Source: Pseudoduganella albidiflava (GTDB lineage Bacteria; Pseudomonadota; Gammaproteobacteria; Burkholderiales; Burkholderiaceae_D). Taken from it: DNA of 64,000 nt. The notes under the pieces were generated by a model, which worked only from the letters and a program-made list of their open reading frames with translations, did not search any database and was not told the DNA's origin. This document shows positions 10,347-61,375 of the stretch, one piece after another. The translations under genes and the position numbers were made by a program. Within the stretch, counting starts at the first letter, position 1; each line of letters begins with the position of its first letter. The stretch covers positions 1,488,001-1,552,000 of the forward strand of contig NZ_CP036401.1 in assembly GCF_004322755.1 (NCBI RefSeq), given 5' to 3'.

Positions 10347-10427
10347 GGAAATGTTGCCTGGAAATATTGCCCGGAAAATGGGGACGTACCCCATTTTCCG
10401 GGCAACAGTTTCCCGGAAATACTTCCC
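10347..10427. repeat. REP-like palindrome with 17-bp perfect arms
   Basis: Positions 10367-10383 and 10389-10405 are perfect reverse complements around a 5-nt loop (ACGTA). The inner part reads TGGGGACGTACCCCA. Outside it are GGAAATATT-like half palindromes (10361, 10414) of the type seen in the other REP-like arrays of this window. It could also act as a bidirectional terminator, but no T-run follows. Confidence 0.75.
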
Positions 10428-19117: not shown

Positions 19118-19193
19118 TGCATGAATTCACCCCAACAGCGAAGGGCTGGGGTCAGACCCGCCGGGTCTGACCCCAGAATTTGCACTTGGGGTG
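19118..19193. repeat. Composite palindromic repeat, empty form
   Basis: A nested palindrome. The inner arms CTGGGGTCAGACCC (19146-19159) and GGGTCTGACCCCAG (19163-19176) are perfect. The outer CACCCCAA and TTGGGGTG also pair. Almost the same element occurs inverted at 31051-31197, where its centre is interrupted by another repeat. Confidence 0.8.
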
Positions 19194-26047: not shown

Positions 26048-26150
26048 GGAAATGTTTCCCAAAAAAGGGGACTGTCCCCGATCCCAGGAAATATTTCCAA
26101 AAAAAGGGGACTGTCCCCGATCTCAGGAAATATTTTCGAAAAACGGGGCT
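26048..26150. repeat. REP-like array with GGGGACTGTCCCC cores
   Basis: Two direct copies of a unit of about 46 bp, each made of GGAAAT(G/A)TTTCC plus an A-rich stretch, the perfect palindrome GGGGAC-T-GTCCCC and a short tail; a third, partial copy ends at the next gene. The layout equals the GGGGTCAGACCCC arrays near 41.2, 55.3 and 56.2 kb, with a different core. Confidence 0.85.
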
Positions 26151-31050: not shown

Positions 31051-31197
31051 CCACCCCAAGTGCAAACTCCGGGGTCAGACCCGCCGGGGTGTAGCAGGGG
31101 TTTCGCGAAGCCTGCTTCGCGCCTGCAGAACGATGCAGGCATGCATGCCAGCATTCCTCCCTGACCCCAGCCCTTCGCTGTTGGGGTGAATGCATGC
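31051..31197. repeat. Composite palindromic repeat interrupted by a second repeat family
   Basis: The outer parts are an inverted copy of the element at 19118-19193 (CCACCCCAAGTGCAAA at the left, CAGCCCTTCGCTGTTGGGGT at the right). The centre is split by about 75 bp (roughly 31087-31161) that match the 81-bp repeat at 60932-61170 (TTTCGCGAAGC, GCTTCGCGCCTGC). Confidence 0.8.
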
Positions 31198-36601: not shown

Positions 36602-36637
36602 CTGGTGTCCGACACCAGAGGTGTCCGACACCAGCAC
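36602..36637. repeat. GGTGTCCGACACC palindrome pair
   Basis: CTGGTGTC-C-GACACCAG (36602-36618) is a perfect palindrome, repeated at once as GGTGTC-C-GACACC plus tail. The layout is the same as the GGGGTC-A-GACCCC family with compensating changes in both arms. Confidence 0.75.
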
Positions 36638-41160: not shown

Positions 41161-41182
41161 ATTCTGCCAAGAAACTAAAAAG

Positions 41183-41253
41183 TTGCCAAAAACCGGGGTC
41201 AGACCCCGGTTTTTGGCAATATTTCCTGAAACCGGGGTCTGACCCCGGTTCGA
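41183..41253. repeat. REP-like array with 18-bp perfect arms
   Basis: 41183-41200 and 41202-41219 are perfect reverse complements around a single A (core GGGGTC-A-GACCCC, outer arms TTGCCAAAAACC). A second, shorter copy with GGGGTC-T-GACCCC follows after ATATTTCCTGAAA. The array lies between the zinc-ribbon gene and the convergent chemoreceptor gene and could also terminate both. Confidence 0.9.
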
Positions 41254-41263
41254 TTTTTACTTG

Positions 41264-55274: not shown

Positions 55275-55320
55275 CAAAACAACACCGGTGCGGTACGGCG
55301 CTCCGGCAGTCCCCGTTTTA

Positions 55321-55400
55321 TTTCCAAACACCGGGGTCAGACCCCGATTCCAGGAAATATTTCCAAAAACTGGGGTCAGACCCCGTTTTCAGGCAATGTT
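55321..55400. repeat. REP-like array downstream of the RAYT gene
   Basis: Two direct copies of TTTCC-A-rich-GGGGTC-A-GACCCCG separated by the perfect palindrome GGAAATATTTCC. The array ends 37 bp from the stop of the RAYT gene. Confidence 0.9.
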
Positions 55401-55436
55401 ATTCAGTGCCGGTTGCGTATCCCGTTTTGGCAATTT

Positions 55437-56090
55437 CTACGTTTCCTGTACCAGCACTCTCCGACTTACGCGGGGGGCTGGAGGTCTGCCAACTGGGTGA
55501 TTGCCAGCGATTGCTTTCCTTATGGCATCCAACTGATACGGCAAAATCGAATTGGAGAAGAGATCGCGGTATGCGGCATGACGCCGATCGGCCTGGGTGC
55601 CAAGTGCCATGTAAAGCGGATGCGGCGTTAGCAGAACGTCGTTTCGCATTCCTGAGTTACCGGCGTAGCTCGACCATTGGTAACGTCCTGCCGAGTCGAC
55701 TATACAAGCCCGGACAGGGTTCAATTCGACATAACGCTGGCAAGTAAAAAAGTACTCTTCGACGGGAACAGGGCTGGATCGAAATCTGCCTTCCCACCAT
55801 GTACCTTTTCGTTCGAATCGGCGGTTGAGATATTGCGTGTATCTTTGCGATACCCCCTTCATCAGGGCCGAAATTTGCTCGATCTCGTCCGCTGTGGCGA
55901 GAATATGCACGTGGTTCGTCATCAACACGTATGCGTGAATCGCCACGCCGTTAAAGCGCGAGTAATCACGTAGCCACTCGAGATAGACCGTGTAATCCGA
56001 CCATCCAAAGAAGCATGGCTGTCGAAGGTGCCCACGCTGGATGATGTGAAGGGGACAGCCAGGTAACAGCAATCGAGCGCGGCGGGCCAT
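55437..56090 (-). CDS. REP-associated tyrosine transposase (RAYT, Y1_Tnp family)
   Basis: A 217-residue IS200-like HUH protein. It starts ARLLLPGCPLHIIQRGHLRQPCFF; the HUH motif is H60/H62 in MTNHVHILA, and the catalytic tyrosine is expected in RYTQYLNRR (Y84 or Y87), followed by GTWWEGRF and CQRYVELNPVRA, all typical of RAYTs. It has no recognisable IS ends but is flanked on both sides by GGGGTCAGACCCC palindrome arrays, the arrangement of a RAYT with its REP/REPIN elements. Its GC content is clearly lower than that of the neighbours. RAYTs are single-copy, vertically kept or domesticated transposases. Confidence 0.92.
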   Translation of the reverse strand: MARRARLLLPGCPLHIIQRGHLRQPCFFGWSDYTVYLEWLRDYSRFNGVAIHAYVLMTNHVHILATADEIEQISALMKGVSQRYTQYLNRRFERKGTWWEGRFRSSPVPVEEYFFTCQRYVELNPVRACIVDSAGRYQWSSYAGNSGMRNDVLLTPHPLYMALGTQADRRHAAYRDLFSNSILPYQLDAIRKAIAGNHPVGRPPAPRVSRRVLVQET

Positions 56091-56176
56091 GAGTAGCTCC
56101 TTGGTCGGGGGGCCAACTGTGGCATGAGGAGCTATGGACTCGACTGACTCAGCTCAACGTAAATGCGGCATCGAAA

Positions 56177-56255
56177 AGTTTCCTAAAACCGGGGTCTGAC
56201 CCCGGTTTTAGGAAATGTTTCCCGGTCTTGGGGTCAGACCCCGCTTTTTGGCAAC
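56177..56255. repeat. REP-like array upstream of the RAYT gene
   Basis: Positions 56179-56196 and 56198-56215 are perfect 18-bp arms around one T (core GGGGTC-T-GACCCC, outer TTTCCTAAAACC). A second core GGGGTC-A-GACCCC follows after GGAAATGTTTCCC. It lies about 90 bp before the RAYT start. Confidence 0.9.
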
Positions 56256-60931: not shown

Positions 60932-61170
60932 TTCGCGAAGCACTGCTTCGCGCCTGCGGAACGACGCAGCCTTGCAAGGCTGCGGCTGGATGCATGAGCA
61001 TTCGAGTAGGGTTTCGCGAAGCACTGCTTCGCGCTCGCCGAACGACGCAGCCTTGCAAGGCTGCGGCTGGATGCATGAGCATTCGAGTCGGGTTTCGCGA
61101 AGCAACGCTTCGTGCTGGCCGAGCGGTGCGGCCCTACATGGCCGCACCTTCGCGAAGCACTGCTTGCGGG
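60932..61170. repeat. 81-bp direct repeat, three copies plus a partial one
   Basis: Copies start at 60932, 61013 and 61094 (period exactly 81 bp), with a truncated fourth at 61149. Each contains the hairpin TTCGCGAAGCACTGCTTCGCG, and the first two the perfect palindrome GCAGCCTTGCAAGGCTGC. The third copy is diverged. The period equals 27 codons and a frame stays open across it, but no start or coding signature supports a gene. A related copy lies inside 31087-31161. Confidence 0.85.
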
Positions 61171-61252: not shown

Positions 61253-61375
61253 CAGGCAATCTTCTCCCAAAATCGGAGCCTGTCCCCGGTTTCCAGGAAA
61301 AACAGGGACGGACCCAGTTTTCCAGGCAATCTTTCCCAAAAATCGGAGCCTGTCCCCGGTTTTTCGGCCGGCGCG
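61253..61375. repeat. REP-like array with GGAGCCTGTCCCC cores
   Basis: Two direct copies of CAGGCAATCTT(C/T)CCCAAAA(A)TCGGAGCCTGTCCCCGGTTT, separated by a diverged copy (GGGACGGACCC). It has the same modular plan as the other arrays, though the core is not palindromic. The array ends two bases before a TAAAAT -10 candidate (61377) of the next gene. Confidence 0.8.

Follow-up and report, generated by a model that had tools for sequence, protein, structure and literature searches.

The question raised by this locus is whether a transposase gene of low GC content and the palindromes that enclose it form one system, and of what kind. The locus lies in Pseudoduganella albidiflava, a soil-bacterium relative of Massilia, within a 64,000-nucleotide stretch of DNA (hereafter the window) that is part of a single 7.44-Mb contig. 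A first-pass annotation had described a lower-GC Y1_Tnp gene between two palindrome arrays and had read it as a RAYT with REP/REPIN elements. The description was borne out: the gene has 54.3% GC against 65.8% for the whole window, and exact boxes lie on both sides of it (Table 1). The open reading frame matches the Y1_Tnp profile PF01797 (E 6.5e-12) as well as the NCBIfam profile REP_Tyr_transpos (E 9.5e-17; 61.2 bits, under the cut-off of 80), and its motifs are NHVH, WE and YVELNP. Both histidines of the HUH motif (H60 and H62) are invariant among 43 aligned homologues, and the presumed catalytic tyrosine, Y120, is present in at least 90% of them. The gene has the properties of RAYTs/TnpAREPs in the broad sense, namely HUH and a single tyrosine in a Y1_Tnp domain with a Y---NP motif, flanks that are multi-copy repeats elsewhere and, for its clade, single-copy vertical inheritance as a non-IS gene. 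A sequence search of the PDB with one sequence returned just two weak transposase matches (E about 0.8).

Table 1. Positions of the transposase gene and of the palindromic boxes in the window.
Feature	Position	Strand	Remarks
RAYT/TIRYT-type Y1 (HUH) transposase gene	55437..56090	minus	217 aa; Y1_Tnp match and homologue alignment
39-bp unit, TC core	55320..55358		box 55333-55345; exact box
39-bp unit, TC core	55359..55397		box 55372-55384; direct tandem with unit 55320..55358
39-bp unit, TC core	56178..56216		box 56191-56203; perfect 18-bp arms
39-bp unit, TC core	56217..56255		box 56230-56242; exact box
Dispersed two-unit array, TC 39-bp family	41182..41259		boxes 41195, 41234
Dispersed two-unit array, AC core, 39-bp family	26054..26131		boxes 26067, 26106
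Box GGGGACGTACCCC, another family	10380..10392	+	
Inverted pair CTGGGGTCAGACCCGCCGGGTCTGACCCCAG	19146..19176		paired GGGTCAGACCCG box at 19148
GGGGTCAGACCCG, partial box of paired GGGTCAGACCCG family	31071..31083	+	
Pair of GGTGTCCGACACC boxes	36604..36632		boxes 36604/36620; family of 75 copies in home genome
Two GGAGCCTGTCCCC boxes	61275..61357	+	boxes 61275-61287, 61345-61357

The repeat around the gene is a 39-bp unit, TTTCC-N7-GGGGTC-N-GACCCC-N7-GGAAA, and two tandem pairs of it enclose the RAYT gene. The window has six exact GGGGTCNGACCCC boxes, four of them around the RAYT gene, where 100 dinucleotide shuffles of the window gave an expectation of none. With up to two mismatches allowed there were 14 matches, a number reached in 0 of the 100 shuffles; 4.28 are expected by chance, and a single degenerate match therefore carries less weight. 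The remaining two exact boxes make up the array at 41182, annotated from the start as the same modular unit. In the whole home genome we counted 105 TC boxes against 0 for a reversed control pattern, the over-representation that had been proposed as a check, along with 40 AC boxes and 10 matches to GGGGTCTGTCCCC.

To describe the unit we read a sample of 108 boxes, taken from the window and from home-genome stretches around listed boxes. It held 66 TC, 38 AC and 4 mixed boxes, and since the sample was chosen by box, the rarity of mixed boxes is not readable from it. The 39-bp type accounted for 91 of the 108 (56 TC, 35 AC), with both outer arms present in 69, the chance of an outer arm being 3% per side; among the remaining 17 were the four mixed boxes and a kind with 52-bp spacing. 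Neighbouring units stood at an exact 39-bp pitch in 24 pairs, five of which joined a TC to an AC unit, so that both cores probably belong to one system. The central base was the same in 18 of 23 readable pairs and different in 5 (p 0.011), which indicates mostly direct tandem repeats. When units were oriented by the central T, conservation was higher on the 5' than on the 3' side (p 0.0008, n=58, each array represented by a single box), and the unit is thus directional despite its nearly symmetric core. The consensus of 89 oriented boxes has an A-rich stretch and a C ahead of GGGG, and lacks GT[AG]G at the 5' hairpin foot. Single-stranded folding of three 39-bp-type sequences predicted hairpins with a 3-nt loop in all cases, and the unit at 56178..56216 gave a predicted hairpin of -18.8 kcal/mol. 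Covariation of the outer arms did not exceed chance, apart from a weak signal at two mirror positions, 9 (p 0.045) and 16 (p 0.016); that position 2 pairs perfectly follows from the restriction to TC and AC boxes. The home genome also has a second arrangement of TC boxes (C1 452086-452407, 572789-572841, 1139555-1139607 and 1393328-1393379), with pairs 51-52 bp apart, complementary central bases and a different interior.

These properties bear on the terms REP and REPIN, both of which the first-pass annotation had used and neither of which fits the 39-bp family. The unit is not a REP in the strict sense because the GT[AG]G tag is missing from the hairpin foot, and it does not form REPINs because its neighbours are mostly direct tandem copies at 39-bp pitch and not inverted pairs. 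That GTAG-tagged inverted REPs are moved here by a group 2 or 3 RAYT, as in a canonical REP/REPIN system, is accordingly improbable in our estimate: beyond the missing tag and the tandem arrangement, NHVH/WE/YVELNP fits subclass 2.1 and not 2.2 (DHLH/YIHYNP) or 2.5 (DH[LF]H/YI[VI]ANP). What such a system would account for are the multi-copy intergenic palindromes around a Y1 gene and the best NCBIfam match, a REP-associated tyrosine transposase, though under the cut-off. Inverted pairs do occur in other RAYT clades of the genus; in G001 and G002, 23 of 23 pairs were inverted with 16-17 bp spacing (by eye, among the matches listed). The REPtrons of E. coli, Stenotrophomonas and Marinomonas (TnpAREP groups 2/3), as presented in the part of PMC8266576 considered here, likewise have a Y1 gene beside cognate intergenic hairpins. 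The window units differ from them in having no GTAG tag, in being perfect odd palindromes with a 3-nt CNG loop, and in standing mostly in direct tandem instead of inverted BIME/REPIN pairs.

The locus also resembles the TIRYTs, or TIRtrons, which the part of Di Nocera et al. (2013; PMC3733652) considered here describes as Y1 transposase genes flanked by inverted repeats (TIRs), some sharing GGGGWSAS; some TIRs are self-complementary, many occur in dimers or clusters, and in some species they are members of moderately abundant repeat families. The window gene, too, is enclosed by multi-copy self-complementary repeats, and GGGGWSAS is found in GGGGTCAG and, in relatives, in GGGGACAG. Our case agrees with that description and extends it: the repeat here is a directional 39-bp unit, mostly in direct tandem; the genus has many spellings, including some in other clades that deviate from GGGGWSAS (GGGGACGT, GGGGTCGT); and the match of box to enzyme was tested across 74 genomes. 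Compared by eye, and not with the authors' profiles, the window motifs agree with the signature of TnpA(Y1) subclass 2.1 (NHVH, W[EQ], YIELNP-type) in Table 1 of Quentin et al. (2018; PMC6006769), the table that also equates subclass 2.1 with Bertels group 1. In the sections of that paper used here, beta-proteobacteria are among the prevalent hosts of the subclass, its median length is 238 aa against 217 for the window protein, and all 20 TIRYTs placed in it have a C-terminal HTH, whereas the window protein has none that is recognisable (no HTH family at E 0.1). The same sections report no REP-like sequences near subclass 2.1 genes by automatic or manual search; at the window gene, in contrast, REP-like repeats are present and multi-copy. 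No experimental work on subclass 2.1 was found in the portions of the literature consulted, and no paper came up when four box strings were searched for in full texts. The literature listings searched likewise contained no account of such a system in this bacterial group, in keeping with the earlier remark that it is little described there.

If box and enzyme belong together, the one should be abundant where the other is present. Some RAYT homologue occurs in all 74 congeneric genomes compared, so that presence or absence must be asked by clade. In a tree of 92 RAYT proteins from 94 examined loci, among the matches listed, the window protein (L021) groups with L022-L026, L028 and L029 (98/94 support), with one row per genome in 8 genomes. 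Posed by clade, the comparison of relatives with and without the gene gave the expected outcome, the unit being abundant (at least 30 half-unit matches) in 7 of the 8 window-clade genomes and in 0 of the 66 others. Half-matches for both cores numbered 185, 111, 94, 87, 85, 49, 35 and 11 in the former and 0-21 in the latter, with 0 in 59 of the 66 (AUC 0.996 over 74 genomes, kinship ignored).

RAYT genes of the 74 genomes are flanked by ten or more spellings of the box, among them GGGGTC-N-GACCCC, GGGGAC-N-GTCCCC, CCGGGAC-N-GTCCCGG, GGTGTC-N-GACACC, GGGGTCGTACCCC pairs, GGGGACGTACCCC, GGGGTCTGTCCCC, GGTGTCTGTCACC, GGTGTCGCACACC, GGAGCCTGTCACC, AGGGTCCGTCCCT and paired GGGTCAGACCC forms; no box of these kinds was seen at many RAYT loci, especially those of a conserved paralogue clade. 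The genome-wide abundance of a box follows the flanking RAYT, with exceptions. Counted on both strands, GGGGTCGTACCCC occurs 172 and 142 times in two flanked genomes, 27 times in G058, where no matching flank was seen, and at most twice elsewhere. Retrospective comparisons gave AUCs of 0.971 for the AC core (kinship ignored) and 0.977 for GGTGTC, the flanks of which are loosely placed in two of three genomes. For GGGGACGTACCCC and GGGGTCTGTCCCC the predictions were written down before searching, and both held. Counts of GGGGACGTACCCC were 89, 65, 54, 39 and 38 in the five flanked genomes against 38, 36, 27 and 14 in the best others (AUC 0.999, kinship ignored); those of GGGGTCTGTCCCC were 180, 132, 122, 93, 89 and 75 in six flanked genomes, one of which (G007) has the box at its RAYT in gapped form, against 76, 33, 27 and 18 (AUC 0.998, kinship ignored). 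The association partly follows kinship, because relatives share both RAYT and boxes. Exceptions are G063, with 76 GGGGTCTGTCCCC and 38 GGGGACGTACCCC matches that were not predicted, and G069, with 33 and 36; both carry box families for which none of the loci read has a matching flanked RAYT. The boxes beside the window-clade RAYT have the AC core in G027, G063 and G069, genomes in which TC units nevertheless outnumber AC units (TC:AC half-units 90:21, 31:4 and 73:14, respectively).

Taken by itself, the TC box shows only a loose association with its flank (AUC 0.88), and in a first pass 19 genomes had at least 40 TC boxes without a TC-flanked RAYT. Its lower specificity comes from being shared by several types of unit, one of which belongs to a separate RAYT clade that bears an HTH. 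This clade (L111, L113, L114, L115, L119, L122, L125; about 250 aa) is also GGGGTCNGACCCC-flanked, some of its boxes having CACCTT or TTC/GAA outer arms, and HTH_23 was found in L109; it was looked up in 23 genomes picked mostly for high TC counts, and so provides no independent test. CGT-loop boxes go with four independent protein lineages, among which no residue tracked the loop, as all shared residues also occur in at least 35% of CNG-type proteins. As a separate observation, G027 has 143 GGTGTC-N-GACACC boxes genome-wide, and its L105 (C1:4524875-4525488) is a RAYT gene in two pieces, in different frames, beside a GTGTC-type box.

The gene itself appears to stay in place. In 7 of the 8 rows, from seven species, the window-clade RAYT occupies one and the same position, near genes for a GDSL lipase and a TonB receptor, which argues that it is inherited and not hopping; L029 (G007) is at another place. 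G000 (the home genome), G017, G026, G027 and G069 have the RAYT between a second GDSL gene and the TonB receptor gene; a second GDSL gene was not found at the window-clade locus of G063, and G013 has about 1.3 kb of extra DNA between RAYT and TonB receptor gene. The same neighbourhood is seen in Pseudoduganella umbonata and P. flava, the weaker relatives being two Massilia. In P. flava the HUH and Tyr motifs and the C-terminal stretch fall within one open piece, and judged by this reading frame the gene is not called broken. Of the 8 rows, six (L021, L023, L024, L026, L028, L029) have boxes on both flanks of the gene and two (L022, L025) have them on a single flank. The ratio dN/dS was about 0.12-0.18 for L021/L022, L024/L026 and L026/L028, values that are rough since dS exceeds 1 between the compared genes; against the G013 orthologue the window gene has dN 0.25 and dS 1.38. 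Relatives were found on 22 of 72,556 plasmid records, all at less than 60% identity, so the wider family can travel. An autonomous insertion sequence, in which the gene and flanking inverted boxes move as one piece, would fit several RAYT genes (L051, L055, L058) at which the asymmetric boxes of the left and right flanks are inverted relative to each other. We regard it as extremely unlikely given one row per genome and one locus in seven species for the window clade, and given the divergence among the home genome's five Y1 genes, four of which are 29-51% identical to the one in the window.

The window also holds boxes of other kinds, first annotated as altered cores of a single repeat. The altered cores are real, but they are not one series: the boxes at 26067/26106 (GGGGACTGTCCCC) are of the 39-bp family, and those at 10380, 19148, 31071, 36604/36620 and 61275/61345 belong to other families. 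Some of these are matched to other RAYTs. The GGGGACGTACCCC box flanks RAYT genes in G014, G021, G027, G045 and G068; the home RAYT at G000:1090815 has, 23 bp downstream, a pair one base off CTGGGGTCAGACCCGCCGGGTCTGACCCCAG, and the home RAYT at G000:1059202 has a GGAGCCTGTCCCC box downstream. The notion of several subfamilies within the genome was thereby upheld. Unrelated to the boxes are two pairs of inverted repeats in the window at 60943-61080, GCGAAGCACTGCTTCGC and CGCAGCCTTGCAAGGCTGCG, which recur at a distance of about 81 bp.

Where the boxes lie, and how they change, was followed in the home genome and in five relatives. With one box per cluster and a simple codon-usage gene caller, which misses the RAYT itself, 46 of 47 box clusters were intergenic and one was inside a called gene. 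Between two called genes lay 43 clusters (23 convergent, 19 tandem, 1 divergent), with 3 more at an edge, compared with 8 convergent, 28 tandem and 9 divergent gene pairs in the window (convergent against all others, Fisher p 0.0007). Fetched stretches of G013, G027, G069, G063 and G026 are collinear with the window, in pieces, at about 76-94% identity, over nearly the whole window in the first three, from about 20.8 kb in G063 and from about 46 kb in G026. The array at 41182 is also present at the orthologous site of G069 (P. umbonata), its second box degenerate; in G027 the corresponding site carries split TC-like remnants with a paired-box element among them, and in G063 it carries two AC boxes whose outer arms are different. 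The array at 26054 has an AC array as its counterpart in G027 and is absent from the orthologous sites of G013 and G069 (G063 could not be anchored). At the sites orthologous to 10380 and 61275 we found GGGGACGGACCCC in G069 and a GGTGTC pair in G013, respectively. Such presence and absence, with differing boxes at orthologous sites, indicates that units come and go at the same intergenic places; intergenic DNA was too diverged between species to give exact insertion boundaries from empty sites. The strong 3'-end and convergent-gene bias is what one would expect of terminators, and the palindromes might be host elements (terminators or protein-binding sites) kept for a function of their own, with the RAYT adjoining some of them simply by position. 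This is very unlikely, as box spelling tracks RAYT clade, including the two advance predictions, families are missing from many congeners (no 39-bp unit match in 59 of 74), and orthologous sites show turnover of boxes.

Many genomes of the genus have RAYT paralogues in the clade of L020 (G000:7152788-7153396), which includes L084, L085, L089, L090 and L093-L098. The first HUH histidine is lost in an 11-row subclade of its 26 rows (GQLH, DQLH, DQFH, DGLH), where the NP of the Tyr motif is altered and the frames are open; dN/dS is about 0.08-0.21 for seven pairs. To judge from these sequences, the HUH-loss paralogues are possibly binding proteins without cutting, and their low dN/dS suggests that binding without cutting may be useful. 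The boxes could be operators, through which RAYTs control themselves or neighbouring genes, and could spread via ordinary recombination. Box-to-RAYT distances that are similar within clades would suit operators, as would the low dN/dS of these paralogues, yet about 100 copies far from RAYT genes and the 39-bp array steps would go unexplained, and we think this explanation unlikely.

What we consider probable is that a RAYT of subclass 2.1 (group 1, TIRYT), inherited vertically and staying at its own locus, acts on its cognate 39-bp unit and spreads it in trans; the first-pass idea of a RAYT-type transposase with cognate dispersed palindromes is in this sense supported. On the strand with the CTG centre, sequence and predicted fold indicate that the single-stranded unit can form a GGGG[T/A]-CTG-[A/T]CCCC hairpin with the conserved TTTCC-N-AAAA on its 5' side, and this strand would be the one recognised. 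The RAYT would probably recognise the hairpin on the lagging-strand template or in another single-stranded region. By analogy with the family, cleavage and rejoining would follow HUH/Y1 chemistry, units would be copied or moved in trans into intergenic 3' regions, and arrays would be lengthened in 39-bp steps. Across the genus, RAYT lineages would have split, each with its own box spelling, so that several enzyme-box pairs coexist in one genome. Enzymes and repeats appear to have diversified together, sister species having sister transposases and differently spelled hairpins.

A wider reading, to which we give an even chance, is that the genus harbours a radiation of at least ten RAYT-hairpin pairs in a RAYT branch thought to be REP-free, in which the 13-nt box sets specificity (by the stem pair at positions 5/9, the loop, CNG or CGT, and position 3), several pairs share a genome, and different families re-use orthologous sites between genes. 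The repeats described here run counter to the published statement, in the part of that paper considered (PMC6006769), that subclass 2.1 has no REP-like repeats, and they provide a candidate substrate family for enzymes with the group 1/subclass 2.1 signature. The many natural enzyme-box pairs within a single genus allow one to ask how a domesticated transposase shifts its hairpin specificity and what the host gains by retaining it. If the wider reading is true, the genus would supply a natural set of mutually orthogonal nucleases for single-strand hairpins whose specificities can be read.
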